From the NCBI GenBank assembly GCA_959347345.1, contig OY365738.1:248001-312000 (forward strand): DNA of 64,000 bases, in the 5' to 3' direction. Source of the DNA: an uncultured Amylibacter sp. GTDB lineage: Bacteria > Pseudomonadota > Alphaproteobacteria > Rhodobacterales > Rhodobacteraceae. The position numbers and the translations under genes were made by a program. The notes beneath the pieces were generated by a model, which ran no database searches, was not told the DNA's origin, and worked only from the letters and a program-made list of their open reading frames with translations. Positions 6,572-54,190 of the stretch are shown in pieces (positions within the stretch are counted from its first letter, which is position 1; each line of letters starts with the position of its first letter).

Positions 6572-9500
6572 CTAGTTATTGGGATTATCCGCGACAAACC
6601 CGCCAAAGTAAACGCCGGTATTTTCCGCTTGACTCGGGCTTTCCTGCACGTAAACTCCGACCAGTCCCGCCTCCCCAATCAAACCGCGTGCTGTTGCGCT
6701 AACACCAACGCCATTGGTCACATTGCCAGTGATAACGCCCGTGGCAGGGGTAAATCTAAGGGCAAAAGTCGTGGTGCGGAAAACACCAGTTAAAATCTCT
6801 ACACTAGGAGTTGCGGTAATGGCTGTTCCGTTAAAATCAATCTCAAAATTAACATTTTGGGTATCCTCAATGCTTGTATGGTAAAACTTGCCAGGCCAAG
6901 TTGTTATCGCGGGCGGACTTGCCAAAGGCGCCCCCAGATTCGTGGTGGGTAAAACAGCGACAAAGGCTTGGGTAAAATTCTCGGTACTCCTTCCCGTAAG
7001 ATAGGTAACGCCATGCCTACCATTCGTCTCATCGCCATCAAGGGTGAGGTGGGTGTTTGTATTCCTGTGCGTCAAGCCCGCCTCAGAAATATCTCGCACC
7101 CCATCAGCAAGGTTTAAAAAGCTACCGACAGCAGCTGTACCTACGTTTGCTGCCGCTCTTGTCGCGGGTGGGGGGCTTGCGCCAAAAATACCCAACCAAT
7201 TGGCGTGATTCACACAATTATCCGCCAAGACGCAAGGGGGGGACACGGCAACAAACCCGCCAGCGAAAGAAAACTCCAAGTTGTTATCGCTGTGAAACAC
7301 ACCAACCGCACCTTCCGCCCCGATAAGCCCTGCCAAATTCCCCGTGATATCCCCGCGATTTACAAAGCCTCGAAGCACCCCGTTAGCGCTGCCAAAACTA
7401 GTGTTTACAAAAGAATAGAGCGTGTTTGTGACTGTGGCATCTATACTTCGGCTAGCAAAATCAATCGTAAGTTTAAATGGCGTTGTCGTGGCGACTCCGT
7501 TTTCATAAACCACAAACGACCCGTCCCAAGCAGCAGCAGGGGCACTCGCCAAAGCCACCCCCAAACTGGTTGTGGATGAAAGCCCGACAAGATAATCATT
7601 CGTTGCGGTAACGTAATGAACATTAAACCCATCGGCAGGGTCGCCGTCCAAACTGCCAAGATTAACATTGAAACGCTCCCCGGCATGAGCCGCGTTAATC
7701 ACATCATTCCTTATGGTTTGAACAAATTGGTTTAGGTTATCGCCCGACGGAGCTGCGGCAGGTGTTGCAGGTGGGCTACTAGAGGTCACCCAATCGCTAT
7801 AGGACACATTGCCCTCAAACGGGTTGGCGACAAACCCGCCAGCAAAGCCAGTCGCTATGCCTGTCCCACCCGTTATATTGTCCTTATTAGCACCCGTGCC
7901 AGAAACAAACACGCCAACCGCACCCTGTCTGCCAATCAACCCTGTTAGGATTCCCTTACGGGTAGCATCGCTATTCGTTGGCACAGTACGGTCGTCATCG
8001 GTAAATGCTCCAAAATTAACCGTGCCAGAGATGACTCCGTTCTCATCATAAGTGCCGTCTAGAAGAAAGTGATTCGCACCCGATGGAACAAACGCCGCTA
8101 TTGATCCCGCGACATCGCCCGTACCGCCAAAAGTAATCTCTAATTCAAATTCGGTTGCTTGGTCTAATTTGGTTGCATTAAATCTGCCCTTCCAAATCGC
8201 CGTGCCAGTTTCTTGGAAGCTGGGTGCACCCAAATCTGTCTGCGAATCAAGCCCAGCGTAGTGATACAGTTGCCCCGAATCCTCAAAAATAAAGTAAGCC
8301 ACACCATCGGTCGCATCCCCGCCTTTCAGTTCGCCAAGGTGCAAAGTCGTAGCAGTCTCCGCGTGTTCGTCTGGGAAAACCTCATCTAGTGCCGCGTCCA
8401 GAGCATCAGTCCCCGCGTTCAAGAATTCATTTCGGCGGGTTGTTGTGTTCGGCGTGAGTTCTGGGGCTTTGCCCGTGCCAAAACTGGCTTCCCAATCGTC
8501 ATAATTCACCGTGCATATATCCTTGGCAAAGTTTGCCGCTGTGCCACAATAAACCTCTTTAATGCTTATGATAGTATCAAGATTCTCACACCCCGTATTT
8601 GTCGTATTAAACGGATTCATCTGGCAAGCCGTAATAACCCCTGGGCGGTCTGTGCAACTGGGATGCTGAGGACTACCTTTTGCGTTGCTCAAACACGCGG
8701 TATCGCGGTCGCCATCATGGTCGCCAAGGCCATTGTCTAAACAATCTTGATTAAACAGATTCGTGGGTAATATATCACAAAAGGTGTCTCTTTCATTATC
8801 GCCAAGATCGCGGTCTATACACTCTTGATCAAACAGATTCGCGGGCATTTCGCAAAAGGTCATTCTTATATTGTTGATATTACTTATGTTCATACACTCT
8901 GCATGGGTGAATATATTCGCGGGCATCTCGCAAAAAGTCGTCCGTCCGCCCCCGCCGAGGTTATTGGCTATACAATCCGCATTAAACCGATTATCGGGCA
9001 TTTCGCAAAAGGTCGTCCGTCCGCCCCCGCCGAGGTTATTGGCTATACAATCCGCATTAAACCGATTCGTGGGCATGTCACAAAAGGTCGTCCGTCCACC
9101 CCCGCCGAGGTTATTGGTTATACAATCCGCATTAAACCGATTATCGGGCATTTCGCAAAAGGTCATTCTTATATCGTTGATATTCCCCAAATCCATACAC
9201 TTTGCATGGGTGAATATATTCGCGGGCATCTCACAAAAGGTCGTCCGTCCGCCCCCGCCGAGGTTATTGGCTATACAATCCGCATTAAACCGATTATCGG
9301 GCATTTCACAAAAGGTCATCCGTCCATCCCCGCCGAGGTTATTGGTTATACAACCCGCATTAAACCGATTATCGGGCAATGCGCAAAAATTGTTCCGTAT
9401 CGCATCATCCAGAGTATCGCACCCGTTATAAACAAACGGATCCTCCGTGCAAGCCATATTAATACGGTCATCGCAACTGGCATGCCCGCCCGCTTCCACA

Positions 9501-9685
9501 TTTGTGCCGTGCATTTGACAGGCGGTGTTTTTTTCATCCTCGCACATATTGACCGAATCAAACGGAGCTTCCGTGCAATCAACGGCGGTTTCTTCGGCGG
9601 GCGTTGCGCCTCCTCCGCAAGCGGTTAATAATGCAAGCCCAGCAATGATAATCAGGGGGGCAGTTAGGGTTTTAATATAAGTCAT
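6572..9685 (-). CDS. Cys-rich repeat surface lipoprotein with three TbpB-like barrel domains
   Basis: 1037 residues. The lipoprotein signal MTYIKTLTAPLIIIAGLALL ends in lipobox LTAC (Cys about 23). Residues about 60-380 carry roughly ten 25-residue repeats of the form TTFCEMPDNRFNADCIANN, each with two cysteines. From about 440 there are three copies of the transferrin-binding-protein-like barrel module, each with a W-x-G strand, an I-x-G-x-V strand, LTGLIGxxGAVGVF and a closing FAGGFVA (ends near 630, 830 and 1035). In Neisseria and relatives such barrels are carried by Slam-dependent surface lipoproteins that bind host proteins or haem. Surface display here is inference; no Slam gene is in the window. 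It is a paralogue of the next gene upstream and of the one at 63095, with near-identical signal peptides. Confidence 0.8.
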   Translation of the reverse strand: MTYIKTLTAPLIIIAGLALLTACGGGATPAEETAVDCTEAPFDSVNMCEDEKNTACQMHGTNVEAGGHASCDDRINMACTEDPFVYNGCDTLDDAIRNNFCALPDNRFNAGCITNNLGGDGRMTFCEMPDNRFNADCIANNLGGGGRTTFCEMPANIFTHAKCMDLGNINDIRMTFCEMPDNRFNADCITNNLGGGGRTTFCDMPTNRFNADCIANNLGGGGRTTFCEMPDNRFNADCIANNLGGGGRTTFCEMPANIFTHAECMNISNINNIRMTFCEMPANLFDQECIDRDLGDNERDTFCDILPTNLFNQDCLDNGLGDHDGDRDTACLSNAKGSPQHPSCTDRPGVITACQMNPFNTTNTGCENLDTIISIKEVYCGTAANFAKDICTVNYDDWEASFGTGKAPELTPNTTTRRNEFLNAGTDALDAALDEVFPDEHAETATTLHLGELKGGDATDGVAYFIFEDSGQLYHYAGLDSQTDLGAPSFQETGTAIWKGRFNATKLDQATEFELEITFGGTGDVAGSIAAFVPSGANHFLLDGTYDENGVISGTVNFGAFTDDDRTVPTNSDATRKGILTGLIGRQGAVGVFVSGTGANKDNITGGTGIATGFAGGFVANPFEGNVSYSDWVTSSSPPATPAAAPSGDNLNQFVQTIRNDVINAAHAGERFNVNLGSLDGDPADGFNVHYVTATNDYLVGLSSTTSLGVALASAPAAAWDGSFVVYENGVATTTPFKLTIDFASRSIDATVTNTLYSFVNTSFGSANGVLRGFVNRGDITGNLAGLIGAEGAVGVFHSDNNLEFSFAGGFVAVSPPCVLADNCVNHANWLGIFGASPPPATRAAANVGTAAVGSFLNLADGVRDISEAGLTHRNTNTHLTLDGDETNGRHGVTYLTGRSTENFTQAFVAVLPTTNLGAPLASPPAITTWPGKFYHTSIEDTQNVNFEIDFNGTAITATPSVEILTGVFRTTTFALRFTPATGVITGNVTNGVGVSATARGLIGEAGLVGVYVQESPSQAENTGVYFGGFVADNPNN
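8690..9405. repeat. 75-bp tandem repeats inside lipoprotein gene
   Basis: About ten in-frame 75-bp units encoding 25-residue Cys-x(10-11)-Cys modules. Several adjacent copies are nearly identical at base level (AACCGATTATCGGGCATTTC recurs), showing recent expansion or gene conversion. Two units have a divergent FTHAKC/FTHAEC form. Confidence 0.85.
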
Positions 9686-9723
9686 AAGCGTGTCCTTTTT
9701 GTTTGATTGAATGTAATAATTTT

Positions 9724-9753
9724 ACTATAAACAAAAGTTTGTGTGGATTGCAA
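9724..9753 (-). promoter_or_regulatory. Sigma-70 promoter of the 1037-residue lipoprotein
   Basis: Minus strand: -35 TTGCAA (9748-9753), 18-nt spacer, -10 TATAGT (9724-9729). The same 18-nt spacing and -10 are seen before the two paralogous lipoprotein genes. Confidence 0.6.
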
Positions 9754-9808
9754 GCCCTAAAAACCACCCCCTAACACCCCAAAACAAATAAAATGGGATA
9801 ATTTTGCA

Positions 9809-9940
9809 CTAATCAATATCCAAATCGGGTAATTTGCCGATAATTTCGGTTGTTTTTAAACTGACGGTTATGACGCGCTGGAATAACTGCAAGGGATAGG
9901 CGGGCAGGGGGATTCCCTTGATAGTGATATTGGGGTTGTA
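9809..9940 (-). pseudogene. Remnant of the Type ISP gene 3' end (copy 2), internally deleted
   Basis: The minus strand encodes a segment starting YNPNITIKGIPLPAY, continuing PLQLFQRVITVSLKT and ending EIIGKLPDLDID-stop. Compared with the intact gene it lacks exactly 44 codons between two PAY-encoding direct repeats (CCCGCCTAT), so the frame is kept. It sits directly between the stop of the 1481-residue lipoprotein and the promoter of the 1037-residue lipoprotein, the same place the intact 3' end occupies relative to the 1481-residue gene. Confidence 0.9.
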
Positions 9941-9954
9941 AATCGCGGGTGTTA

Positions 9955-12900
9955 TTACGGGCGTGTAGACCGCGCTATAAACCCACCAGCAAATCCGGCT
10001 CTCGTAGCAGGATGTTTAAAATTGTTTAGATTTGCATCCACTTGTCTAGGCTTATCATCATAATTCGTAAAATCCTGACCAATAAACACGCCAACAGCCT
10101 CTGTCTGCCCGATAAGACCGGTTAAAGGCCCAACGACTCTCCTTTGGAAACTGTAAGTAGTTGTTGTCGTAGCGTTACTATCTCCTATGAAGGTCCGCCT
10201 CGTGTACGTGTCTATTTTAGATCTTGTCACATTGCCACCCATAATACCTTTAGAATCAAAAGTTCCATTAACAGTATATTCGTCATAACTCCCGCGGATT
10301 GTCCCGTTGTTGTCTCCGTCATAATTAACAGTAAGGTCAATATCGCCATATATTTTACCAGCACGAGTGAGATACCAATCCCGATTTTGTAGAACTACAA
10401 TCCGTCCATACCACGTTGCATTTGTCACTGCTTCGGTCAAAGGCGGTCCCAAATCTGTGCCTGATAAAAGCCCAGCATAAAAATAACGCTTGCCCCCGAT
10501 ATTGCCATATTGAAATGCCACGCCGTTAGTTGCACTCCCGCCAAACAACATGCCATTGTAGGTGGCAGTTTGAAAGTTAAAACTGTCAGCCGTAAAGTCG
10601 CCCAAACCCGTTGTATTCAGCCCTGTTTCCTTGCCTTGCAAAAATTTGTTTCCCGCGGTGGGGGCAAGATTGGAAGCAAGCAGCGGGGCATTGTCGGGAA
10701 AACTAGCCACCCAAGCGTCATAGGTTGCGGTCGGGCAACCTGTCACATGGCTAGCCTTGCAATAGGTTCTTACAATCATTTCAAATTTCGTAAGAATGGC
10801 ACAGCCCGGATTTGCAGAGTCAAACGGATTTGATGCACAGGACGACTCGGCAAGCGTATTGCTAACGCAACTGCGATGCCCGCCCTTGGTTGTATCAGTG
10901 CCAAACTCTAAACAAGCATCACCCCGCGTAGCCGTCACCGTGCCATGCGTTGTATCCATGCATTTCGGATTCCAAGCGTTCGCGGACATTTGGCAATACA
11001 TCGTTCGCACCCCCGCGTCTATACCCGCCACATCATCACAGCCCGCATGGATAAACGGGTTGGCTATATCATTACACACGGAGGCAAGGCTGGTCGCGCA
11101 ACTATTATCACCGCCCGTGCCCGTGCCAAACATTTGGCAAGCCGTCACTCGCGTGGCATTCACCGCACCATGCGTTGTATCCATACATTTCGGATTCCAA
11201 GCATTCGCGGGGGTTTCGCAAAAGGTTTTTCGCAACCCCGCGTCAATCCCCACCACATCATTACACCCCTCATGAATAAACGGATTGGCTAGCAGACACA
11301 CGGAAATAAGACTGGTCGCGCAACTATCATCACCGCCCATGCCCGTGCCAAACATTTCACAAGCCGTCATTCGCGTGGTAGTCACCGCACCATGCGTTGT
11401 ATCCATACATTTCGGATTCCAAGCATTGGCGGGCATTTCACAAAACATCGTTCGCACTCCAGAGTCTATATCCGTCACATCATCACACCCCGCATGGGCA
11501 AACGGGTTGGCTATAAGACACACGGAAATAAGACTGGTCGCGCAACTGGTATCACCGCCCATGTTTGTATCCGTGCCAAACATTTCACAAGCCGTCATTC
11601 GCGTGGCATTCACAGTGCCATGCGTTGTCTCCATGCATTTCGGATTCCAAGCGTTCGCGGGCATTTCACAAAACATCGTTCGCACCCCATCGTCAATCCC
11701 CGCCACATCATCACAGCCCGCATGGATAAACGGGTTGGCTAGCAGGCACACGGAAATAAGGCTGGTCGCGCAACTATCATCACCGCCCATGCCTGTATCC
11801 GTGCCAAACATTTCACAAGCCGTCATTCGCGTGGCATTCACAGTGCCATGCGTTGTATCCATGCATTTCGGATTCCAAGCATTGGCGGGCATTTCACAAA
11901 ACATCGTTCGCACCCCTGCGTTTATACCCACCACATCATCACACCCCTCATGGATAAACGGATTGGCTAGCAGACACACGGAAATAAGGCTATTCGCGCA
12001 ACTATCATCACCGCCCGTGTCCGTATTCGTACCAAACATTTCACAAGCCGTCACTCGCGTGGCATCAACCGCACCATGCGTTGTATCCATGCATTTCGGA
12101 TTCCAAGCCGTGGCGGGGGTTTCACAAAAGATTTTTCGCACCCCTGCGTCAATCCCCACTATATCATCACACCCCTCATGGATAAACGGATTGGCTAGCA
12201 GACACACGGAAATAAGACTGGTCGCGCAACTGGTATCACCGCCCATGCCCGTGCCAAACATTTGGCAAGCGGTCATTCGCGTGGCAATCACAGTGCCATG
12301 CGTTGTATCCATACATTTCGGATTCCAAGCGTTCGCGGGCATTTCACAAAACATCGTTCGCACCCCCGCGTCAATCCCCGCCACATCATCACAGCCCGCA
12401 TGGATAAACGGGTTGGCTAGCAGGCACACGGAAATAAGGCTGGTCGCGCAACTATCATCACCGCCCATGCCCGTGCCAAACATTTCACAAGCCGTCATTC
12501 GCGTAGCATTCACAGTGCCATGCGTTGTATCCATACATTTCGGATTCCAAGCATTGGCGGGCATTTCACAAAACATTGTTCGCACCCCAGAGTCTATATC
12601 CGTCACATCATCACACCCCGCATGGATAAACGGGTTGGTTATAGTACAAGAAGAGGCAAGGCTATCGGCGCAACTGGTATCACCGCCCATGCCCGTGCCA
12701 AACATTTGGCAAGCGGTCATTCGCGTGGCAATCACAGTGCCATGCGTTGTATCCATACATTTCGGATTCCAAGCGTTCGCGGGCATTTCACAAAACATCG
12801 TTCGTACCCCCGCGTCAATCCCCACTACATCATCACAGCCCTCATGGATAAACGGGTTGGTTATAGTACAAGAAGAGGCAAGGCTGGTCGCGCAACTATC

Positions 12901-14400
12901 ATCACCGCCCATGCCTGTATCCGTGCCAAACATTTCACAAGCCATCACTCGCGTAGCATTCACCGCACCATGCGTTGTTTGCATACATTTCGGATTCCAA
13001 GCGTTCGCGGGCATTTCACAAAACATCGTTCGCACCCCATCGTCAATCCCCGCCACATCATCACACCCCGCATGGATAAACGGGTTGGCTAGCAGGCACA
13101 CGGAAATAAGGCTGGTCGCGCAACTATCATCACCGCCCATGCCTGTATCCGTGCCAAACATTTGGCAAGCCGTCACTCGCGTGGCACTCACAGTGCCATG
13201 CGTTGTCTCCATGCATTTCGGATTCCAAGCATTGGCGGGCATTTCACAAAACATCGTTCGCACCCCTGCGTTTATACCCACCACATCATCACACCCCGCA
13301 TGGATAAACGGGTTGGCTAGCAGACACACGGAAATAAGACTGGTCGCGCAACTGGTATCACCGCCCATGTCCGTATCCGTGCCAAACATTTCACAAGCCG
13401 TCACTCGCGTGGCATCAACCGCACCATGCGTTGTATCCATGCATTTCGGATTCCAAGCCGTGGCGGGGGTTTCACAAAAGATTTTTCGTACCCCTGCGTT
13501 TATACCCGCCACATCATCACAGCCCTCATAGATAAACGGGTTGGCTATATCATTACACACGATGGCAAGGCTGGTCGCGCAACTATCATCACCGCCCATG
13601 CCTGTATCCGTGCCAAACATTTGGCAAGCCGTCACTCGCGTGGTATTCACCGCACCATGCGTTGTCTCCATGCATTTAGGATTCCAAGCCGTGGCAGGGG
13701 TTTCACAATACATCATTCGCACCCCTGCAATCCCCTCCACATCCTTGCACCCCGCATAGATAAACGGGTCGGTTATAGTGCAAGAAGAGGCAAGGCTGGC
13801 CGCGCAACTATCATCACCGCCCGCATCCGTGCCATGCGTTTGGCAAGCATTCGCTCGCATAGTGTCTGTATCTGTCAAACCCGTGCAGAAGTCATCAAAA
13901 ATATCGCCATCCGCCCCGCAAATCAGATCAACAGTCGGCATGCACCGCGTGGAGGTTTTGTCGCTCGTGCAAGTCATCCTGCGTTTATCAACGTATTTTT
14001 GCTCTGCGCAATCGGAGGCAAACTCGTTTGCATCGCATGCCGTTATTCGGTCTTCCTCATCACACGCCGCTTGCGTTTTGGTATCGGTGCATTGTTCCAT
14101 AACAACCTCGCGCTGGTCTACGTATTCCGTAATGTCATCGCAAAGCATATCATCAAAATTCTTATCGCAAACAAATGTGGTCGCATCATCGCAAAGCGCC
14201 CCCGAGTCATCCGTGCGACAACCGCTGGCAATAGTTTGGCGAGGCGTTTCAAATTCCTCCCCACAATTCGCGCCATAGGGATTCGTATCGCAGAGCGCGC
14301 CATTATTGATATTAACCTCGCCGATATTAACGGTTGGCGACCCGCAAGCGGTTAATAAAGCAAGGGCGGTTAGGGCGGTTAGGATTTTGATATAAGTCAT
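9955..14400 (-). CDS. Giant Cys-rich repeat lipoprotein with C-terminal TbpB-like barrel
   Basis: 1481 residues from the ATG at 14400, chosen because it begins a clean lipoprotein signal (MTYIKILTALTALALLTACG, Cys about 19); a longer frame adds 34 unlikely residues. A short Cys-rich region is followed by 13 units of about 75 residues. Each unit holds three sub-modules of about 25 residues with two cysteines: FCEMPANAWNPKC, then ACEMFGTDTGMGGDDSC, then CLLANPFIHAGC. The C-terminal ~190 residues form one TbpB-like barrel with VVGPLTGLIGQTEAVGVF and AGFAGGFIA. A lipid-anchored, disulfide-stapled stalk carrying a binding barrel is the likely architecture. The ligand is unknown. The gene lies 134 nt downstream of the Type ISP gene with its own promoter. 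Confidence 0.8.
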   Translation of the reverse strand: MTYIKILTALTALALLTACGSPTVNIGEVNINNGALCDTNPYGANCGEEFETPRQTIASGCRTDDSGALCDDATTFVCDKNFDDMLCDDITEYVDQREVVMEQCTDTKTQAACDEEDRITACDANEFASDCAEQKYVDKRRMTCTSDKTSTRCMPTVDLICGADGDIFDDFCTGLTDTDTMRANACQTHGTDAGGDDSCAASLASSCTITDPFIYAGCKDVEGIAGVRMMYCETPATAWNPKCMETTHGAVNTTRVTACQMFGTDTGMGGDDSCATSLAIVCNDIANPFIYEGCDDVAGINAGVRKIFCETPATAWNPKCMDTTHGAVDATRVTACEMFGTDTDMGGDTSCATSLISVCLLANPFIHAGCDDVVGINAGVRTMFCEMPANAWNPKCMETTHGTVSATRVTACQMFGTDTGMGGDDSCATSLISVCLLANPFIHAGCDDVAGIDDGVRTMFCEMPANAWNPKCMQTTHGAVNATRVMACEMFGTDTGMGGDDSCATSLASSCTITNPFIHEGCDDVVGIDAGVRTMFCEMPANAWNPKCMDTTHGTVIATRMTACQMFGTGMGGDTSCADSLASSCTITNPFIHAGCDDVTDIDSGVRTMFCEMPANAWNPKCMDTTHGTVNATRMTACEMFGTGMGGDDSCATSLISVCLLANPFIHAGCDDVAGIDAGVRTMFCEMPANAWNPKCMDTTHGTVIATRMTACQMFGTGMGGDTSCATSLISVCLLANPFIHEGCDDIVGIDAGVRKIFCETPATAWNPKCMDTTHGAVDATRVTACEMFGTNTDTGGDDSCANSLISVCLLANPFIHEGCDDVVGINAGVRTMFCEMPANAWNPKCMDTTHGTVNATRMTACEMFGTDTGMGGDDSCATSLISVCLLANPFIHAGCDDVAGIDDGVRTMFCEMPANAWNPKCMETTHGTVNATRMTACEMFGTDTNMGGDTSCATSLISVCLIANPFAHAGCDDVTDIDSGVRTMFCEMPANAWNPKCMDTTHGAVTTTRMTACEMFGTGMGGDDSCATSLISVCLLANPFIHEGCNDVVGIDAGLRKTFCETPANAWNPKCMDTTHGAVNATRVTACQMFGTGTGGDNSCATSLASVCNDIANPFIHAGCDDVAGIDAGVRTMYCQMSANAWNPKCMDTTHGTVTATRGDACLEFGTDTTKGGHRSCVSNTLAESSCASNPFDSANPGCAILTKFEMIVRTYCKASHVTGCPTATYDAWVASFPDNAPLLASNLAPTAGNKFLQGKETGLNTTGLGDFTADSFNFQTATYNGMLFGGSATNGVAFQYGNIGGKRYFYAGLLSGTDLGPPLTEAVTNATWYGRIVVLQNRDWYLTRAGKIYGDIDLTVNYDGDNNGTIRGSYDEYTVNGTFDSKGIMGGNVTRSKIDTYTRRTFIGDSNATTTTTYSFQRRVVGPLTGLIGQTEAVGVFIGQDFTNYDDKPRQVDANLNNFKHPATRAGFAGGFIARSTRP
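10930..13720. repeat. Thirteen ~225-bp tandem repeats inside lipoprotein gene
   Basis: The landmark CATTTCGGATTCCAAGC recurs 12 times, with one more copy changed to CATTTAGG, at spacings of 222, 225, 228 or 231 bp, always multiples of three. Neighbouring copies are near-identical over long blocks and mosaic with respect to each other, which implies unequal crossover or conversion. The long open frame on the opposite strand here is a by-product of the repeat. Confidence 0.9.
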
Positions 14401-14534: not shown

Positions 14535-17500
14535 TTAATCAATATCCAAATCGGGCAGGTTGGTGATGATTTCCATTGTTTTTAAACTGACGGTTATGAC
14601 GCGCTGGAATAACTGCAAGGGATAGGCGGGGTTTTGCATGGTTTCATTGGCGTAGTCATTGGCATCGTTTATAATCCCACTGGCTTTGTCGGTTTTCACA
14701 ATCTGGCGGTTCATCACCCATTCCAACGCTGATTGTCCATTGATTATGTATTCATAGGCGGGCAGGGGGATTCCCTTGATAGTGATATTGGCGTTGTAAC
14801 GAACGATTGTTTTATCTTTGCTTGCCCCCGTGCCATTAAAACTCATCTTTGTAACGCGATAGAATTTGGCATTTTCGGCGGGGTCTTCTATTAAACCCTC
14901 TGGCTGGGTTTTATAGTCAATAGTCACACCATCATACATCGGGGCGTTTTCATAATTGACATGGAGGTCGCCAAGTTCGCGTCCCGCTCGGCTAAACGCC
15001 TGAAAGTCGGCAAAGGTTTTGACCGCAGGAATACGGGGCAGTTCTTTGGATAGGTTATTTTTGAACTTGTTGCGATATTGGGGCGAATGGAGCAATCCGT
15101 AAATGTAATAAAACAAATCTTCTTTGGTGATATTTTTGTTTGGATAGGCGACTTGGAAATGGGCAAGCCCTTCGTTGGTGATACCGTCACGCTCGGTATA
15201 GGCAGTTTTGCCAGAGGGTAAGAATCCTTTTTCCGTTGACGTAGCTTCGTATAGTTTGAGGGGGAAGTTTTGCCCCGCCTGAATTAAATTCAAATCTGGA
15301 ACGTGAGAACTCATTAGACAAGAAAAACTATTTTGCGCACTTACACCGCAGATTGTGATTACAAGGTTATCTGTTGTCTTCTGTGGAAAAATTTTATCTA
15401 TTTGGCCGGGTCTATCAATAAGGAAAGGGTCAAAATAAAGATTAGATTTTTGAAAGGGTCTATACATGGCAGTTCTAAAATAGTCTTGTGAAAATTCTGT
15501 TGTCAGTCCGCGTTTAAAACTGCTTTCCAAACTGCTTGACCATTTAATTTTTTTGTCGTCTTTGATAACTTTTTTATAATCGCTTTGCCGTTCAGCCTCT
15601 TCATTATAGACATCAATCATGGAAGAAATTTTATTTCCAAGTTTTTTCTTTGACGCATTGTAATTCCAAGAATCTCGATTTGTTGAAACCCCTAGAGAAA
15701 AGTTTGCAAAGATAGATAAGGCTTTTTTGTCTTTTTTATTGCCTGTTGCGATATGATTGGCAAAGCTCGGGTCGCGCTGATTTATCCAATCATTATTTTC
15801 ATTGGGCTTGATGATTTGCCAGCCGTCTTCTGCCGTAATTCCATCAATGGATTTAAAATTGCTTATGGTTTCCAGTTTTTTTTCTGTTTTCCAATCATCG
15901 CCAATATCATGGAAATGGATTTTGCCTTGCTCTTTTGCATCGGGATTCCTTACCAGAACAGTGATTGCAATTCCTGCTTTACTGCCAGAGCCAAAGATAT
16001 TGCCGCCCTCTTTTGCTTGTCCGCTAGACATTATGTTTTTATTAATATCCCCGCGTAGATTAAAAACATAAAGGCTACTAAATTCCTCTGCTAAACATTT
16101 GCGCAAACCATCGGTAGAGCTACTTTCCAGCCAACCCGAGTTTGAAACATAGGCAACGATGCCTCGGTCATTGCCCTTTTCGGTTATCCTATCACTCGCC
16201 CAGCGAATTGCCCGAATATAACTATCATAAAGATTTCTTTGCAGTGTTGCTGTTGAATGTTTAGCATAGCTATTCTCTATTGCTTTATCCAAATTTGGAT
16301 AGGCAACATTAGCAGCGTTATCATTTGCGCTAGTCTGTCCTCTTGAATAGGGCGGATTTCCCATAATTACCCGAATATCAAGTTTTCTTTGTTTTGTCCT
16401 GCGCCCTGCATTATCGTCTTCTTCTTTGGCGACCAAATCCTCGTCTTCCTCGTACAGATAAAAAGTATCTGTCAAAACCACGCCATCAAAAGGAGTATAG
16501 GGAACTTCCGCCCCGCTCGCGTGCTTTCTTGCCTTATCATGATAAACTGATTCGATATTTATCGCGGCGATGTAATATGCCAGCAAAACAATCTCATTCG
16601 CGTGGATTTCGTTTTTATATTTGTATTCCATCTGTTCGGGTTCTATCAAACCAGATTCCAACAACTGCGTGATAAATGTACCTGTGCCAGTGAAGGGGTC
16701 AAGGATATGAACACCCTCGTCTCCTAATGTTTTTTGGAATTCCGATTTTAACACGTCATTAACGGAATGAATAATGAAATCCACAACCTCGGGCGGGGTA
16801 TAAACGATGCCTAATTTTTTTGTTGTCTTATTAAAGGCTTTATTAAAAAACTGCCCATAAAGTCTTTTTACCAATGTTTGGCGACCCTCTGCTGTTTTAA
16901 TCTCGCTGGCACTGCTTTTAACGGAGTCGTAAAATCCTTGCAGGCTTTTGGTTTCTTTATCTAAATTATGCTGGTAAAGTTGGTTCAGCACACCCTCCAT
17001 CGCTATGGATACAGAGTTATTAGTGGTGAATTCATTATCCTTAAACAAGGTATCAAACACAGGTTTTGTAACCAAATGTTGCGCCAACATCTCAATCGCA
17101 TCTTCTTGATTAATTTTATCGTTCAGGTCGGCTTGGATTTTTTCTAAAAATACATCAAACGCCTTTTTAGCATCACCACCATTTCCGATGATTCCACGAA
17201 TGCGGGTGATATGGATATTGGCAATATCTCTAACCTTATCCGCCCAAACATCCCAGTATTCATTCGTGCCACAATTTTTAAGTATTTTAGCAAGGATAGC
17301 CTCGTGGAATTCATCAAATTTAAAAGCAGTCTGTTTGCTAAAGGCGTTGCTAATATCAACGGTTACCGCCTCGCTTTCGCCTCCGCCAACATCTCTTACA
17401 ACACCAAGAATTTCAATTTTATCAGATACGTCTTGTTTTAGGCGAATCTGGTTAATTATGGCATTAAAACGTTCATCATGGGTGCGTAGGGCGTTTAGGA

Positions 17501-19403
17501 TTTGCCAAACAACCTTATAGCTACTATCATTATTCAAGGCTTCTGCTGGGTCTGCACCCTCTGTCACAACAACGGGTAGAATGACATAGCCCATTTCTTT
17601 GCCCTCAGCCTTTCGCATCACGCGCCCCACGGATTGAACAACATCAATCTGGCTTTTGCGCGGGTGCATGAACATAATAGAATCTAGGGCAGGGACATCC
17701 ACACCCTCCGACAAGCACCGCACATTGGTTAAAAGACGGCAGGTGTCCTCTTCGGTTTCTTCTAGCTCTTCATCAAGCCATTTAATAAGTCTGGTGCGTT
17801 CTTTACCGCTAAACGTGCCATCCACATGTGCGGCTTCAATCCGTAGCCTTTCCTGCTCATTATTATTATTTTTTTCATATTTAAGATAGTCATCAACAGT
17901 ATCGTCAAAGTACTTGGCAATACTTTTTGAAATGTCAATACTTTGACAAAATGCAACCGCCCGTTTCATGGGATTCAGTTCGTATTCGTCCGCTGAATTC
18001 TCCGTATCTTTTGGGGTTAGCCCGCTTTTGGTAAGAGCCTTATAGCACCCAATAATTTTGGTTGCCTCATCCAGTTTAATAAGGCTGTCTGTTGCTAAAC
18101 GAGTTTGCAAGCTGGCACTGATTAAATCTTCATCAACCGCCAAAATTATGACTTTATAATCCGTTAAAAGGTCGGCTTTAACCGCGTCATTAAAATCCAG
18201 ACGGTGAATTTCTGTGCCAAATACGTCTTCATCATCCATAGTTGCTATTATAATATCGTTTGCATCGGCGGTTGCCTTTGCTTTTTCACCAAATATCTTG
18301 GGCGTGGCTGTCATATACAGGCGTTTTTTACCCTTTACATATTCATCTTTATGAATACGGACAAAGTGGCTTTCTTCCTTATCTGTGCCTTTGGGAGTCG
18401 CACCTGTGGTGCGGTGGGCTTCATCACAAATAATCAAATCAAACGCGGGCATGTCATGGGTTTTTTGGGCTTTGGTTAAAACTTCAATAGACTGATAGGT
18501 CGCAAATATTACAATCATTTTATCTTTGGGGGCGTTTTTCACCTGCTCCGCCAACGTTTTCGCGTTTGTTGTCGCTGGAAAGGCAAGCTCATGTATCGGT
18601 AATTGCAGGCTATCATCATTTATTTTGCCAACGTTACTATCCGAGCATACCGAAAACGCGTGAAAGTCATTTTTGGCATCGTATTTCCACTCCCGCACGG
18701 TTTGCGACATCAAAGCCAAGGACGGCACCATGTATAAAACCATTTCACCTTTACCAACCATATCCTCAGCAATACGCAGGGACGTAAAAGTTTTCCCCGT
18801 ACCGCAAGCCATAATCATTTGACCACGGGTTTTGTCGGTTTTAAAATGTGCTTTAACCGCTTCTATAGCCTCTATCTGGTGTGGTCGCCGTTTTTTTGGG
18901 GGTGCGGGTTTTTTAAAATCCCCCTCCCTGTCTTTGATATGGATATTCCAATCAACACTGCTATCGTCAAGGTCGGCAAGGGTGATGCGATGCCAGCTTT
19001 TACGTTTTTCATTCAACGCGGTTTCTAAATTTTTGCTAAATTTGGGTGTTGTTGTATCCGCGATGATAACGCGGGTAATATCGGGATTGTCGACTTTGCC
19101 AAGAAACGAATCAAGCATTTTTTTGGTGAGGCTGATGTCTTTATCAAAAAACTTGCATTGAATCGCGCAGAACCCCGACCCATCGCTAATTTTAGCAATC
19201 AAATCAATCCCCGTGTCGGTTGGGTCTAGGTCGTGGTCTTTCGCCCAATCCTTATAGTGCCAAACCTTATCATAGTGTTGCATTTGGATTTTATCCTCTT
19301 CCAGATAAATCTTTACAACTTTTTCAAAAACCGTGCCTTGATCGGTTTTAGATTCTGCGTTGTCTCTAATCTTTTCAAGATGTTTGGATAATATATTTTG
19401 CAT
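14535..19403 (-). CDS. Type ISP restriction-modification enzyme (LlaGI/LlaBIII-like)
   Basis: 1622-residue single-chain enzyme that both methylates and, after translocation, cuts DNA. Domains in order: Mrr-like nuclease (TGID with D67, QCK at 82-84); superfamily 2 translocase with Walker A ACGTGKT at 199-205, DEAH at 327-330 and the QSVGRVMR motif VI; a coupler; gamma-type N6-adenine methyltransferase with motif I DPFTGTGTF near 900 and NPPY near 1016; and a C-terminal target-recognition region. Known Type ISP enzymes are about 1570 residues, so length and order fit. No separate specificity or methylase gene is needed. Its final 3' segment exists twice more at 6499 and 9809. All core motifs look intact. 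It stands alone, with its own leader of about 200 nt. Confidence 0.93.
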   Translation of the reverse strand: MQNILSKHLEKIRDNAESKTDQGTVFEKVVKIYLEEDKIQMQHYDKVWHYKDWAKDHDLDPTDTGIDLIAKISDGSGFCAIQCKFFDKDISLTKKMLDSFLGKVDNPDITRVIIADTTTPKFSKNLETALNEKRKSWHRITLADLDDSSVDWNIHIKDREGDFKKPAPPKKRRPHQIEAIEAVKAHFKTDKTRGQMIMACGTGKTFTSLRIAEDMVGKGEMVLYMVPSLALMSQTVREWKYDAKNDFHAFSVCSDSNVGKINDDSLQLPIHELAFPATTNAKTLAEQVKNAPKDKMIVIFATYQSIEVLTKAQKTHDMPAFDLIICDEAHRTTGATPKGTDKEESHFVRIHKDEYVKGKKRLYMTATPKIFGEKAKATADANDIIIATMDDEDVFGTEIHRLDFNDAVKADLLTDYKVIILAVDEDLISASLQTRLATDSLIKLDEATKIIGCYKALTKSGLTPKDTENSADEYELNPMKRAVAFCQSIDISKSIAKYFDDTVDDYLKYEKNNNNEQERLRIEAAHVDGTFSGKERTRLIKWLDEELEETEEDTCRLLTNVRCLSEGVDVPALDSIMFMHPRKSQIDVVQSVGRVMRKAEGKEMGYVILPVVVTEGADPAEALNNDSSYKVVWQILNALRTHDERFNAIINQIRLKQDVSDKIEILGVVRDVGGGESEAVTVDISNAFSKQTAFKFDEFHEAILAKILKNCGTNEYWDVWADKVRDIANIHITRIRGIIGNGGDAKKAFDVFLEKIQADLNDKINQEDAIEMLAQHLVTKPVFDTLFKDNEFTTNNSVSIAMEGVLNQLYQHNLDKETKSLQGFYDSVKSSASEIKTAEGRQTLVKRLYGQFFNKAFNKTTKKLGIVYTPPEVVDFIIHSVNDVLKSEFQKTLGDEGVHILDPFTGTGTFITQLLESGLIEPEQMEYKYKNEIHANEIVLLAYYIAAINIESVYHDKARKHASGAEVPYTPFDGVVLTDTFYLYEEDEDLVAKEEDDNAGRRTKQRKLDIRVIMGNPPYSRGQTSANDNAANVAYPNLDKAIENSYAKHSTATLQRNLYDSYIRAIRWASDRITEKGNDRGIVAYVSNSGWLESSSTDGLRKCLAEEFSSLYVFNLRGDINKNIMSSGQAKEGGNIFGSGSKAGIAITVLVRNPDAKEQGKIHFHDIGDDWKTEKKLETISNFKSIDGITAEDGWQIIKPNENNDWINQRDPSFANHIATGNKKDKKALSIFANFSLGVSTNRDSWNYNASKKKLGNKISSMIDVYNEEAERQSDYKKVIKDDKKIKWSSSLESSFKRGLTTEFSQDYFRTAMYRPFQKSNLYFDPFLIDRPGQIDKIFPQKTTDNLVITICGVSAQNSFSCLMSSHVPDLNLIQAGQNFPLKLYEATSTEKGFLPSGKTAYTERDGITNEGLAHFQVAYPNKNITKEDLFYYIYGLLHSPQYRNKFKNNLSKELPRIPAVKTFADFQAFSRAGRELGDLHVNYENAPMYDGVTIDYKTQPEGLIEDPAENAKFYRVTKMSFNGTGASKDKTIVRYNANITIKGIPLPAYEYIINGQSALEWVMNRQIVKTDKASGIINDANDYANETMQNPAYPLQLFQRVITVSLKTMEIITNLPDLDID

Positions 19404-23615: not shown

Positions 23616-25709
23616 ATGAAAAAAGATATGAAAAACGAAGTCCCAATCCTAGAAATAAACAATTTATCCATCAGTTTTTTCACCCGATTGTTTGAAATCC
23701 CTGCGGTCATGGATTTCTCATGCAAGGTCATGGCGGGCGAGGCTATGGGGCTGGTCGGTGAATCTGGTTGCGGTAAATCCACGGTTGCGCTGGGCGTGAT
23801 GCAGGATTTGGGGGTGAATGGCAAATGCGTGGCGGGGTCGATTAAATTCAAAGGGCGAGAGCTGACGACTATGTCCTATGAAGAACTGCGCCAGCTACGC
23901 GGGCGCGAAATCGCTATGATTTATCAAGAGCCGATGGCTTCGTTAAACCCCGCGATGAAAATCGGCAAGCAACTGATGGAAGTGCCAATGGTACACGAGG
24001 GCGTTTCGCGCAAGGCCGCCTATGATATGGCGATTGATGTCGTGGAATCCGTGCGGTTGCCTGACCCAGAGCGGATTTTGGGCAGTTTCCCCCATCAATT
24101 ATCGGGCGGACAACAGCAAAGAATAGTCATTGCTATGGCGTTAATGTCAAAGCCTTCGCTGTTGATATTGGACGAGCCAACCACCGCCTTGGATGTAACG
24201 GTGGAGGCTGGGATAGTCGATTTGGTCAAGGATTTGGGTAAGAAATATGGCACCTCCATGTTGTTTATCAGCCATAATCTGGGGCTGGTTTTGGAAACCT
24301 GCGATAGAATTACCGTGATGTATTCGGGCGAGGCTGTGGAAACGGGTGCGATAACCGATGTATTTGATAAAATGCGCCATCCTTACACGCAGGCGTTATT
24401 TCGCTCTATCCCCTTGCCTGGTGCCGATAAAAACGCCCATCCATTGGTTGCGATACGGGGGAATTTCCCCTTGCCCCATGAACGCCCAAACGGGTGTAAT
24501 TTCGCCCCGCGGTGTGATTATTTTGAACGCGGACTGTGCGATGCGGGCGATATAGCGATGCAGCCCGTTGGCAAAGGGGCAGAGAAAACCCGCCATAACA
24601 GCCGATGTTTGCGCTTTAATGATATTGATTGGCACGCCCCGATTGCGGCCGCGAAAACCGTGGAAAGCAGGAAGCAGGGTAAGGTTGTTTTAGAGGTAAA
24701 AGACCTAAAGAAATACTATGAAGTCGCCGCCAACGCGGTTTTCGGAGGCGGTGAAAAACGGCTGGTGAAGGCGAACGAAACGCTCAGTTTTATCGCGCAT
24801 GAGTCCGAAACGCTGGCTATTGTCGGGGAATCTGGGTGCGGTAAATCCACACTGGCAAAGGTTCTAATGGGGCTGGAGACAGCAACCGATGGACAGGTGA
24901 CTCTGCTGGGGCAGGAGGTGCAGGATATAGAGATTGGTGATAGGGACGCGAAGACTATTTCCTCCGTGCAGATGGTGTTTCAAAACCCGTTTGATACGTT
25001 AAATCCCTCCATGACCGTGGGCAGCCAGATTAAACGCGCGTTAGAGATTTTTCAAATCGGCTCGGGCGATAAAGACCGTGAAGAGCGGATGTTAAAACTG
25101 CTGGATTTGGTGAAACTACCGCGTGAGTTTGCTGGGCGTATGCCTCGGCAATTATCGGGCGGGCAAAAGCAGAGGATTGGGATTGCCCGTGCCTTTGCTG
25201 GTAACGCGCAGATAGTCGTGGCGGATGAACCAGTGTCGGCGTTGGATGTGTCCGTGCAGGCGGCCGTGACCGATTTGTTAATGGAAATCCAGCGTGAGAA
25301 TAAGACGACTTTGATTTTTATCAGCCATGATTTGTCTATTGTGCGGTATTTATCCGATAGGGTGTTGGTGATGTATTTGGGGCATGTGGTGGAAATGGGA
25401 ACGACAGAGCAGATATTTTCTCCCCCATATCATCCTTATACGGAAGCGTTGTTGTCCGCCGTGCCTATCGCCGATACCTCGGTAAAGAAAAAGAGGGTGG
25501 TGTTGGATGGGGATATTCCATCCGCATTAAACCCGCCGTCTGGTTGCCCTTTCCAAACCCGTTGTCGGTTTAAGGATCAAGTGGCGGGCGGGTTGTGTGA
25601 GCGCGAGGTGCCGCCTGTGCAGGAGGTTGCGGGCGGGCATAGTGTGAAGTGTCATTTGCCAAAGGATGTGTTGGCGAAGATGGAACCTGTGATAACGGTT
25701 AACGATTAA
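23616..25709 (+). CDS. Fused dipeptide-type ABC ATPase (DppD-DppF fusion)
   Basis: 697 residues with two complete ABC cassettes in one chain. The first has Walker A GESGCGKST at 48-56, signature LSGGQQQR near 160 and Walker B LLILDEPTT near 182. The second has GESGCGKST near 405, LSGGQKQR near 511 and VVADEPVSALD near 533. Each is followed by the oligopeptide-transporter C-terminal Cys-containing motif (CNFAPRC; CPFQTRC), consistent with peptide-family importers. It would power both permeases of this operon. The last residues VND and the stop lie in a heptad array. Confidence 0.93.
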   Translation: MKKDMKNEVPILEINNLSISFFTRLFEIPAVMDFSCKVMAGEAMGLVGESGCGKSTVALGVMQDLGVNGKCVAGSIKFKGRELTTMSYEELRQLRGREIAMIYQEPMASLNPAMKIGKQLMEVPMVHEGVSRKAAYDMAIDVVESVRLPDPERILGSFPHQLSGGQQQRIVIAMALMSKPSLLILDEPTTALDVTVEAGIVDLVKDLGKKYGTSMLFISHNLGLVLETCDRITVMYSGEAVETGAITDVFDKMRHPYTQALFRSIPLPGADKNAHPLVAIRGNFPLPHERPNGCNFAPRCDYFERGLCDAGDIAMQPVGKGAEKTRHNSRCLRFNDIDWHAPIAAAKTVESRKQGKVVLEVKDLKKYYEVAANAVFGGGEKRLVKANETLSFIAHESETLAIVGESGCGKSTLAKVLMGLETATDGQVTLLGQEVQDIEIGDRDAKTISSVQMVFQNPFDTLNPSMTVGSQIKRALEIFQIGSGDKDREERMLKLLDLVKLPREFAGRMPRQLSGGQKQRIGIARAFAGNAQIVVADEPVSALDVSVQAAVTDLLMEIQRENKTTLIFISHDLSIVRYLSDRVLVMYLGHVVEMGTTEQIFSPPYHPYTEALLSAVPIADTSVKKKRVVLDGDIPSALNPPSGCPFQTRCRFKDQVAGGLCEREVPPVQEVAGGHSVKCHLPKDVLAKMEPVITVND

Positions 25710-25731
25710 CGATTAATGATTAATGATTAAC
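25698..25731. repeat. Heptad array at ABC ATPase 3' end
   Basis: Five ATTAACG/ATTAATG heptads; the first encodes the last residues and stop (GTTAACGATTAA) of the fused ATPase. Confidence 0.85.
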
Positions 25732-25843
25732 GGGGTTTTGTGGCAAAGTATAAATAATACATAAAAAACTATTTAAAAAATAAACCTTTCATTTACTTTT
25801 GGAATGTAGTAAATGTGTGTGGATTATTGAAAAAGAGGAAACC

Positions 25844-26911
25844 ATGGCTAAATCAAAAATACATTCTAACCTTCATAGTGCAAAAAAGGCAAAAAACAAC
25901 GATGAGTTTTACACGCAACGGACGGATATAGAAAACGAGTTAAGGCACTATAAACACCACTTTAAGGGTAAAGCGGTTTATTGTAATTGTGATGACCCAA
26001 CGGAAAGCCAATTTTTCTTCTACTTTTCACGCAACTTTGAACATTTGGTTTTGAAAAAACTGATTGCGACTTGCTACAAAAGCCAAGATAAAGATTTTTT
26101 TAAACCCGAAGATCACGAAAGTCCTGCTACCGCAATTTATTTAGAATATGACGGCGATAAAAATGGTAATCGTGTGCCAGACCCTGAGGAAATTGGCGTT
26201 AAACCCCTAAAAGGCGATGGTGATTTTCGCAATGAAGAAATGATTGAACTGCTAAAACAGGTTGATATTGTTGTGACAAATCCCCCCTTTTCATTGTTCC
26301 GTGAATATGTCGCGCAACTTATTAAACATGATAAAAAGTTTTTAATTATTGGCAGTTATAACGCTATAACCTATAAAGAGATATTTAAGTTTATACAAGA
26401 AAACAAACTTTGGCTTGGCTATGGGTTTAAATCTGGTAATGCCTATTTCAAAACACCACATTCAAAAGATTTTGCTAAAGGTGTGTATAATGAAGAAACG
26501 GGGCTTGTAAAGTTTAGAAATGTTGGTTGGTACACGAATCTTGATATTAAAAAACGCCACGATAATTTAGACCTTTACAGAAAATATACCCCCGAAAAGT
26601 ATCCAAAATATGAAAATTATGATGCAATTAACGTGGATAAAGTTGCTGAAATTCCAATGGACTATAAAGGTGCAATGGGTGTTCCAATTACATTTATGAA
26701 TAGCTATAATCCAGCACAATTTGAGATTATAGGCTTGGGAATATCTAATTCAGGTTTGGAGGCTGGTGTTCAACCATATAAAAAAGAACATAAAAAATAC
26801 CGCAAAGAAATTCAAAAAAGGGGAGCTGTGGATGGCGACCTCTATATGATGATTAAAGAGGAAGTTACGGTTCCTTACGCCCGAATTCTAATAAGGAATA
26901 AAACACTATGA
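25844..26911 (+). CDS. EcoRI-family adenine-specific DNA methyltransferase
   Basis: 355 residues from the ATG at 25844, which has an AAGAGGAAACC ribosome site; the frame continues 15 codons upstream without one. The sequence matches the EcoRI-type methyltransferase family: an N-terminal SAKKAKNNDEFYTQ segment, then AVYCNCDDPTESQF, the catalytic VVTNPPFSLF (NPPF near 144) and GNAYFKTP. These enzymes methylate adenine in a short target. The gene is AT-rich compared with its neighbours and overlaps the DUF262-HNH gene by 4 nt, so the two are almost certainly one restriction-modification unit acquired by transfer. Confidence 0.88.
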   Translation: MAKSKIHSNLHSAKKAKNNDEFYTQRTDIENELRHYKHHFKGKAVYCNCDDPTESQFFFYFSRNFEHLVLKKLIATCYKSQDKDFFKPEDHESPATAIYLEYDGDKNGNRVPDPEEIGVKPLKGDGDFRNEEMIELLKQVDIVVTNPPFSLFREYVAQLIKHDKKFLIIGSYNAITYKEIFKFIQENKLWLGYGFKSGNAYFKTPHSKDFAKGVYNEETGLVKFRNVGWYTNLDIKKRHDNLDLYRKYTPEKYPKYENYDAINVDKVAEIPMDYKGAMGVPITFMNSYNPAQFEIIGLGISNSGLEAGVQPYKKEHKKYRKEIQKRGAVDGDLYMMIKEEVTVPYARILIRNKTL

Positions 26912-27996
26912 TACCTACACTTACAAAAATTACAATCCGTCAACTATCCAAAGGCTATGACGACCAGAGCGAACACGGAGGCGGGATTGTTGGCTTTGGC
27001 GGAAAGCTGGATATTCGCCCACCCTACCAACGCGAGTTTGTCTATAAACCACCACAAAGGGACGCGGTGATTGATACTGTTATGAAAAACCGCCCCTTAA
27101 ATGTTATGTATTGGGCGGTGCGCGATGATGGCAATTTTGAAGTGATTGACGGACAACAACGGACAATATCAATATGTGAATATATAGACAATCAGTTTTC
27201 GTTAAATGACAGATTTTTTCATAGCTATGTAAATGGTGAAGAAGACCCAATTTTGGATTACGAGCTTATGGTTTATCTTTGCGAAGGCACAGATAAAGAG
27301 AGACTGGAATGGTTTAAAACCATTAACATTGCAGGGGAAAAACTTTATGACCAAGAATTATTAAATGCAGTATATTTTGGTCCATGGCTTTCGGATGCAA
27401 AAATACGTTTTAGTAAAAAAGGATGTGCTGCTTCTAAGATAGGCGGTAAGTATTTGGACTGCATAACAGAACGACAAGATTATTTAGAAACCGCTATAAA
27501 GTGGATAAGCAATGGTAAGATAGAGCGTTATATGTCTAAACACCACCATGACCCAGATGCCAAGGAATTATGGAATTATTTTGAAAAAGTCATAAATTGG
27601 GTAGAGGCGACTTTCACAGAAAACCGCACAGAAATGAAAAGGGTAGATTGGAATGGGCTTTACAAAAAGTTTAGCAGTAAAACATATGACCCTGTAAAAA
27701 TAGAGGCAGAGGTTGCCAAATTAATGGCAGATTATGATGTTAAAACAAAACCCGGAATTTACACCTATGTTTTAACAAGAGACTTAAGAGATTTGGAAAT
27801 CCGCGGTTTTAACCCAAATCAAAGACGCGAGGCATTTGAGCGACAAAAGGGCGTTTGCGTTCATTGTGGCAAAAAGTTTAAACTTGACGAAATGCACGCA
27901 GACCATATTAAACCTTGGAGCAAGGGTGGAAAAACTGTATCAGAAAATTGCCAAATGCTTTGTCAAAAAGACAATGCAATAAAATCAAATAAATAA
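26908..27996 (+). CDS. DUF262-HNH nuclease, probable restriction partner
   Basis: 362 residues. The N-terminal DUF262 (ParB/Srx-like) domain has PPYQREFVYKPPQRDAVIDT and FEVIDGQQRTISI (about 35-90). DUF262 proteins such as GmrSD use nucleotide hydrolysis in restriction of modified DNA. The C-terminus (about 310-360) is an HNH nuclease with CVHCGKKF, HADHIKPWSKGG and CQMLC, giving two CxxC zinc knuckles around the His-Asn-His active site. It starts at ATGA inside the methyltransferase stop (4-nt overlap), which implies translational coupling. Role as the cutting subunit that is blocked by the adjacent methylase is inference; a Type IV-like role is also possible. Confidence 0.85.
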   Translation: MIPTLTKITIRQLSKGYDDQSEHGGGIVGFGGKLDIRPPYQREFVYKPPQRDAVIDTVMKNRPLNVMYWAVRDDGNFEVIDGQQRTISICEYIDNQFSLNDRFFHSYVNGEEDPILDYELMVYLCEGTDKERLEWFKTINIAGEKLYDQELLNAVYFGPWLSDAKIRFSKKGCAASKIGGKYLDCITERQDYLETAIKWISNGKIERYMSKHHHDPDAKELWNYFEKVINWVEATFTENRTEMKRVDWNGLYKKFSSKTYDPVKIEAEVAKLMADYDVKTKPGIYTYVLTRDLRDLEIRGFNPNQRREAFERQKGVCVHCGKKFKLDEMHADHIKPWSKGGKTVSENCQMLCQKDNAIKSNK

Positions 27997-30896: not shown

Positions 30897-30962
30897 TTAG
30901 TTATTAGTTATTAGTGATTAGTGATTAGTGATTAGTGATTAGTGATGAATGATTGGTTGTTA
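30893..30962. repeat. Heptad array (left arm of repeat A)
   Basis: About nine TTAGTTA/TTAGTGA heptads from the kduD stop codon onwards; complementary to the array at 31146-31185 across element A. Confidence 0.9.
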
Positions 30963-43352: not shown

Positions 43353-43408
43353 TGATTAGTTATTAGTGATTAGTTGTTAGTTATTAGTTATTGGTTACTA
43401 GAGATTAG
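43348..43408. repeat. Heptad array (left arm of element B)
   Basis: TTAGTGATTAGTTATTAG-type heptads beginning inside the stop region of the dehydratase gene. Confidence 0.88.
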
Positions 43409-48296: not shown

Positions 48297-48333
48297 ACCG
48301 CTAGAAATACACCCAAGCCTACATTTTGTCAAG

Positions 48334-49134: not shown

Positions 49135-49142
49135 TGGCTATC

Positions 49143-53486: not shown

Positions 53487-53556
53487 CGATTAACGATTAA
53501 CGATTAACGATTAACGATTAGTGATTAGTGATTAGTGATTAGTGATTAGTGATTAA
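53484..53556. repeat. Heptad array at lipoprotein 3' end
   Basis: Five ATTAACG heptads followed by about five ATTAGTG heptads, starting with the stop codon (CAATAACGATTAACG). The switch from ATTAACG to ATTAGTG inside one array shows block-wise expansion. Confidence 0.92.
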
Positions 53557-54125: not shown

Positions 54126-54190
54126 TAAAAATTCACAATTCACAATTCACAATTCACAATTCATAATTCACCATTCATAATTCACAATTC
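54126..54190. repeat. Heptad array of the ATTCACA type at metA 3' end
   Basis: About eight ATTCACA/ATTCATA heptads (GTGAATT on the metA strand). The metA stop TGA is formed by the first unit. A distinct sequence family with the same 7-nt period. Confidence 0.9.

Follow-up and report, generated by a model that had tools for sequence, protein, structure and literature searches.

As described in the available parts of three reports (PMC12282271, PMC5449769, PMC8406197), cargo of Slam and the type XI secretion system (T11SS) consists of an effector region at the N-terminus, a pedestal and, at the C-terminus, a barrel that serves as a putative export signal. Periscope Proteins were picked by repeats longer than 50 residues with 80% identity, as stated in the accessible portion of PMC8201768. 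Here, we describe two adjoining genes, B and S, in a 64,000-nucleotide stretch of an uncultured Amylibacter sp. (contig OY365738.1, positions 248,001 to 312,000; hereafter the window). We assign a probability of about 0.6 to the reading that both products have the Slam/T11SS cargo fold and act as surface lipoproteins of the outer membrane: a stapled stalk holds ligand-binding barrels out, and gain or loss of stalk units sets their reach. S and B fit the cargo layout with the stalk in the effector position, and each begins with a lipid or signal peptidase I (SPI) type signal peptide, as such cargo does, the lipobox being recognized by motif. The features of the two genes, including those identified from open reading frames (ORFs), hidden Markov models (HMMs) and Tandem Repeats Finder (TRF), are as follows.

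9955..14400, minus strand: gene B, a 1481-aa lipoprotein with signal peptide, Cys-rich stalk and one C-terminal barrel (ORF, translation, homologues)
14344..14400, minus strand: B signal peptide and lipobox, lipid Cys19 (LLTAC; by motif)
13852..14292, minus strand: B irregular N-terminal part of the Cys-rich stalk, aa 37-183 (Cys positions, spacings)
10930..13851, minus strand: B array of 13 full units of ~75 aa with six Cys each, aa 184-1157 (unit HMM; TRF 10891-13822)
10735..10929, minus strand: B stalk end with the last Cys cluster, aa 1158-1222 (Cys positions; short helices in the AlphaFold2 model)
9964..10671, minus strand: B barrel domain, TbpB/hemophilin fold, aa 1244-1479
6572..9685, minus strand: gene S, a 1037-aa lipoprotein with signal peptide, Cys-rich stalk and three barrels (ORF, translation, homologues)
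9617..9685, minus strand: S signal peptide and lipobox, lipid Cys23 (by motif)
8513..9577, minus strand: S Cys-rich stalk, aa 37-391 (Cys positions, unit HMM; short helices in the AlphaFold2 model)
7817..8455, minus strand: S barrel 1, aa 411-623 (barrel HMM; strand-rich in the model)
7238..7747, minus strand: S barrel 2, aa 647-816
6581..7138, minus strand: S barrel 3, aa 850-1035 (barrel HMM; strand-rich in the model)

The first-pass annotation of this DNA had proposed two very large lipoproteins with Cys repeats, and the ORFs, the lipobox motif and TRF bear out their coordinates, lipoboxes and arrays. Its barrel counts of one and three likewise agree with the barrel HMM, provided that its first protein is the upstream gene B and its second is S. 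Both proteins start with MTYIK and end their signal peptides with LLTAC; we placed the start of B at the ATG at 14400, as an alternative longer TTG start (14502) falls upstream of the signal peptide.

Cys-rich stalks and their repeat units

The DNA arrays found by TRF, one of 228 bp in 13.0 copies in B (score 3672) and two in S, of 75 bp in 6.2 copies and 153 bp in 3.2 copies, are far beyond chance. The common B unit reads C-x14-C-x7-C-x10-C-x14-C-x10-C. Eleven B units, those delimited by a motif rule among the 13 full units counted by the unit model, were 79-97% identical in DNA (mean 88%), and the pooled ratio of nonsynonymous to synonymous substitution rates (dN/dS) across same-length pairs was 0.30; the units are therefore kept as protein. 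Their amino acid identity averaged 83.6%, with at least 80% in 42 of the 55 pairs and a minimum of 73.7%.

In the stalk of S, the unit HMM located two complete six-Cys units (aa 53-119 and aa 328-401), with two-Cys modules in a run between them. Contrary to the earlier description, S is thus not built from one kind of module alone. The 25-aa repeat of S corresponds to module 3 of the B unit (z 7.6; none of 500 Cys-fixed shuffles reached the score), and two S matches span the columns of modules 2 and 3. Between modules 2 and 3 of B, profile similarity was weak (hhalign P 0.011, one of three uncorrected comparisons), hhalign detected no relation of module 1 to the other B modules (P 0.5 and 0.62), and a pairwise consensus test was negative throughout (m1-m2, m1-m3, m2-m3). 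Given the negative consensus test and a profile signal confined to m2-m3, a common origin of all three modules was rejected. One ancestral two-Cys unit, as first suggested, consequently survives in the match between the S repeat and B module 3, weakly in modules 2 and 3, and not detectably in module 1.

B contains 99 Cys and S 33. All 98 non-lipid Cys of B precede residue 1223; those of S comprise 30 in the stalk (aa 37-391) and two between barrels 2 and 3. Among 257 full-length unit matches from 61 of 172 proteins, with 286 shorter or weaker matches excluded from a total of 543, 248 keep all six Cys and the nine exceptions are gaps at match edges rather than substitutions, a constancy favoured by seeding the unit model with stretches chosen for the six-Cys pattern. 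Paired losses could not indicate Cys partners, as no substituted Cys was present among the unit matches.

We classed 135 homologues (P0002-P0136, P0042 being B itself) by N-terminus and lipobox motif, which gave 80 with a lipobox, 35 secreted-looking proteins without one (defined by MF or MY followed by K or N at the start) and 20 with neither. Considering proteins with at least 10 non-lipid Cys and omitting 23 with fewer, the non-lipid count was even in 69 of 75 lipobox proteins, all 31 secreted-looking proteins and three of six with neither; an earlier, narrower version of the lipobox motif had given 66 of 72. Of the six lipobox proteins with an odd count, five combine an even stalk cluster with an odd number of Cys elsewhere, and in P0033 the cluster is itself odd. 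Total Cys parity follows the lipid Cys, lipoproteins having mostly odd totals and secreted ones even totals, which is what full disulfide pairing predicts; we quote no probability, since the proteins are related and not independent. From these patterns in the sequences, the stalk Cys would be disulfide-paired, and the disulfide ladder of the first-pass annotation is favoured indirectly by the even counts and, with the seed bias, by the constant unit Cys.

AlphaFold2 rendered the stalk as a run of short helices in both proteins, with predicted local distance difference test (pLDDT) values by 10-residue blocks of 55-83 in the B piece and 58-88 over S aa 41-400. Neither protein contains CxxC, CC or CxxCH, and His makes up 1-2% of residues 31-390; metal-store and heme-motif readings were set aside for want of CxxC or CxxCH. 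A match of B to PF09117 (MiAMP1) was rejected as spurious, weak scores having been summed over repeats: whole B scored 35.7 bits, a 110-aa piece with the matched stretch scored 16 bits against a cut-off of 26, and the stalk models as helix. B also weakly matched one PHROG family of no assigned function (21.8 bits). Antisense to the B array runs a 748-codon open frame (11285-13531, plus strand), an artefact that probably results from the codon composition of the repeats.

Relatives, stalk length and barrel heads

A search with S returned 256 protein matches, B among them, of which 120 were used for barrel counts. Over 122 sequences (these 120, S and B, so that B is counted twice, with hits not merged), the barrel HMM matched once in 8 proteins, twice in 13, three times in 43, four times in 20, five times in 18, six times in 18 and seven times in 2. 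The B stalk alone retrieved 39 proteins, B included, within a range of ~0.55 to 1.75 times the length of B; all 39 carry the family barrel, and in this range no such stalk turned up on any other head. A stalk, defined by density as 10 or more Cys within 200 aa, is present in 111 of the 135 homologues and in four of 37 short relatives. Searches of genome contigs (with B and with alignment A1) and of viral contigs yielded no confirmed relative. The secreted-looking branch without a lipobox includes P0026, P0027, P0046 and P0068.

Two of the relatives, P0021 and P0163, come from the alphaproteobacterium Candidatus Halichondribacter symbioticus. Because P0021 shares only 42% identity with S, the window can be placed in this lineage only tentatively. 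In the literature, as far as the consulted text extends, Candidatus Halichondribacter is treated together with the sponge Halichondria panicea, and the bacterium carrying S and B is probably a sponge symbiont.

Full units, counted with the unit model, number 13 in B itself and 6, 7, 7, 8, 8, 9, 9, 10, 10 and 12 in ten of its relatives, the count being made apart from three more distant B-like proteins (P0126-P0128). Over aa 20-195, nine of the ten share 96-97% identity with B, and over the final 240 residues 92-99%; for P0124, the tenth, the values are 49% and 79%, respectively. The orthologues differ mostly by whole units, the units have distinct sequences, and six aligned relatives keep an intact barrel. 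In four cases, S-like and B-like proteins apparently share a contig, judged by equal sizes only (949386, 119592, 181733 and 238022 bases).

Among 18 relatives of S, the barrels of single proteins do not always diverge together. P0009 is 57, 68 and 95% identical to S in barrels 1, 2 and 3, P0005 is 88, 76 and 38% identical, and a fourth barrel, placed ahead of the others, is present in four of the 18. Such uneven divergence points to exchange of whole barrels, and recombination may be the mechanism behind both barrel mosaicism and unit change.

Barrel fold, proposed surface display and competing explanations

Superposition of AlphaFold2 models on PDB entries aligned positions 73-331 of the B model to the TbpB C-lobe and 76-328 to HphA, and it supports, for both S and B, a C-terminal barrel with preceding handle/pedestal strands of the kind that is eight-stranded in T11SS cargo. 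The best Foldseek matches of S were TbpB, and the closest folds of the barrels include heme and transferrin binders. The proposal of TbpB-like barrels is therefore upheld by model fold but not by sequence profiles. Among relatives, P0157 matches PF01298 within its family barrel at 16 bits, below the cut-off of 26, and P0106 passes it at 33 bits in a separate C-terminal barrel and partly matches NCBIfam's model for Slam-dependent lipoproteins (36 bits, cut-off 80); 29 of 30 proteins of alignment A5 had no PF01298 match at E<=0.01. Cargo of this kind may be under-counted, because its barrels escape the sequence searches applied here.

Several results weigh against a cargo assignment. TM-scores of the TbpB matches of S were low (0.16-0.25 by target length), and Foldseek was weak for B, its sole match at E<=0.001 being an unrelated protein and the first fHbp appearing at 0.028; VIA re-aligns only the top 1000 Foldseek matches. 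Neither S nor B (E<=1) nor any single barrel (E<=10) matched PF01298, PDB sequence searches started from S, B and profiles A3, A5 and A6 returned no TbpB, and an hhalign comparison of the family barrel profile with the PF01298 barrel of P0106 did no better than its reversed control (P 0.47 versus 0.15). Confidence in the stalk models is moderate. No DUF560/Slam or TonB-dependent receptor was found in the 42 window ORFs scanned with Pfam (the window has 81 ORFs of at least 120 aa). Finally, 35 of the 135 relatives look secreted and have no lipobox, so anchoring is not general to the family.

In the mechanism that we propose, an acylated N-terminus would anchor S and B in the outer membrane, and the disulfide-stapled helical stalk would keep the C-terminal TbpB/hemophilin-fold handle-barrel domains away from it. 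The C-terminal barrel would probably be the signal for the Slam (DUF560) translocon. The stalk could be oxidized while still in the periplasm or once it has been exported; with so many disulfides, the chain would cross the outer membrane either before oxidation or as folded pieces. Barrel loops would then bind a ligand, for example heme, a metal carrier or a host glycan; reach would change as near-identical stalk units are gained and lost, and recombination between paralogues would change the heads. Capture of metal or host ligands, as raised in the first-pass annotation, is possible. Surface exposure, Slam dependence and ligand capture of S and B are what we infer from layout and fold.

How far the barrels serve nutrition is a separate matter, as S and B might primarily be adhesins or host-recognition factors whose barrels bind sponge glycans or matrix, without nutrient capture. 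One to seven barrel HMM matches per protein, variable stalk length and barrel mosaicism would suit such a role, as would the adjoining genes (Type ISP enzyme, DctP, ankyrin), which are not iron uptake genes; known T11SS cargo include adhesins, according to the available text of PMC12282271. Against it stand the heme and transferrin binders among the closest folds, although fHbp and NHBA share the barrel fold, so the fold does not decide between nutrient capture and adhesion; we regard the adhesin role as a serious possibility with the odds somewhat against it. Retention as periplasm-facing lipoproteins that never reach the surface would accord with the lack of Slam among the scanned window ORFs, but the fold matches cargo that is surface-exposed or secreted, and the separate C-terminal barrel of P0106 passes PF01298 and partly matches the Slam-dependent lipoprotein model, which makes retention unlikely.

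The 98 non-lipid Cys of B might suggest instead a metal or thiol store, with barrels used for export only. The absent CxxC, CC and CxxCH motifs and scarce His speak against this, the even Cys counts fit pairing even though metal sites remain compatible with them, and metallothionein is unlike C-x(10-14)-C modules; we consider such a store very improbable. As for the length differences between B orthologues, metagenome contigs with near-identical repeats are prone to collapse, and assembly errors could mimic variation; the differences nevertheless comprise whole units of distinct sequence, barrels are intact in the six aligned relatives, and B units are 79-97% identical in DNA (mean 88%), not perfectly so, all of which renders this explanation improbable.

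Beyond the reading of S and B as surface cargo of adjustable reach, the locus could, tentatively, belong to a symbiont surface-diversification system, in which TbpB-fold heads are swapped on adjustable disulfide-stapled rods, exported by Slam, and paralogues exchange barrels and stalk units by recombination. Such a system might, with similar caution, represent a lipid-anchored Gram-negative family of periscope-type receptors, the first to our knowledge, with candidates for host recognition or nutrient capture in sponge symbionts.

Genomic surroundings and comparison with known systems

A Type ISP restriction-modification (R-M) gene precedes B and S on the minus strand, and a partial copy of it lies between the two.

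14535..19403, minus strand: Type ISP R-M gene, neighbour and source of the remnant (Pfam)
9778..9941, minus strand: remnant of the Type ISP R-M gene, copied from its 3' end and lying upstream of S (blastn)

By blastn, the remnant matches the 3' end region of 14535-19403 over 127 nt at 87.4% and 46 nt at 97.8%. This broken 3' end upstream of S suggests that the B-S pair probably arose by a duplication carrying the end of the neighbouring gene, or by insertion beside such a duplication. Pfam-annotated genes near S and B encode the Type ISP enzyme, a DctP solute-binding protein and an ankyrin protein. At 25799-27996 and 34017-36422, there are an EcoRI-methylase-like gene adjoining a GmrSD_N/HNH gene and an 801-aa ORF without a Pfam match that resembles an R-M methylase by eye; with the Type ISP gene, the window perhaps holds three restriction-type loci. 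An ABC-3-type metal importer permease and ATPase lie at 47289-49883 (minus strand), ~33 kb away from S and B, and next to them is a 365-aa ORF that has no Pfam match at E<=1e-5. Many 7-bp tandem repeat arrays (TAATAAC, TAACGAT, ATTAGTT and GTGATTA types) are spread across the window, apparently mostly intergenic, at 1070-1219, 25693-25732, 30893-30954, 43348-43401, 53484-53556, 54130-54192 and elsewhere.

The first-pass annotation had considered this architecture undescribed. Consistent with this, the T11SS cargo atlas describes no Cys-rich stalk in its available text, where "cysteine" occurs once in the main text, for the lipid anchor, and "stalk" never (PMC12282271); a search of open-licence PMC literature found no paper about such a Cys-stalked barrel protein, judging by titles and the opening lines of abstracts, subscription papers lying outside it. 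In the accessible text of a Periscope Protein review, the words "lipoprotein" and "disulfide" are absent (PMC9704523). Should our reading be right, Slam/T11SS cargo would extend from one to three barrel lobes, as described in the reports consulted, to proteins whose long stalks, apparently disulfide-paired, bear up to about seven barrels. In their animal-symbiont setting, S and B are candidates for host contact or nutrient capture by uncultured sponge symbionts, and the family opens a way to ask whether repeat number is used by Gram-negative bacteria to tune how far their surface proteins reach.

S and B resemble TbpB and LbpB as lipoproteins with handle and barrel lobes, several lobes per chain, but differ in lacking a PF01298 sequence match, in their long Cys-rich stalk and in lobe number, which is one or three in the window and up to seven HMM matches in relatives. 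Hemophilin and HphA are soluble T11SS heme carriers, from which S and B are set apart by lipobox and stalk; the split between lipobox and secreted-looking relatives parallels that between lipidated and soluble T11SS cargo. Surface proteins of Sphingomonas and Psychrobacter in the cargo atlas likewise place several TbpB-type barrels behind N-terminal repeats, which are proline-threonine or PTD repeats in the text available, whereas the S and B units are helical-looking and Cys-rich (PMC12282271). With Periscope Proteins, as portrayed in the accessible parts of PMC8201768 and PMC9704523, they share tandem units of more than 50 aa, high identity, unit numbers that vary among close relatives and a stalk bearing a ligand domain; B reaches 80% identity on average, if not for every pair, and unit number ranges from 6 to 13 in B and its ten relatives. 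S and B depart from these proteins in their lipid anchor and stalk of six-Cys units, and B may work like a periscope protein with TbpB-type heads, a variant of Slam/T11SS-type cargo by predicted fold.
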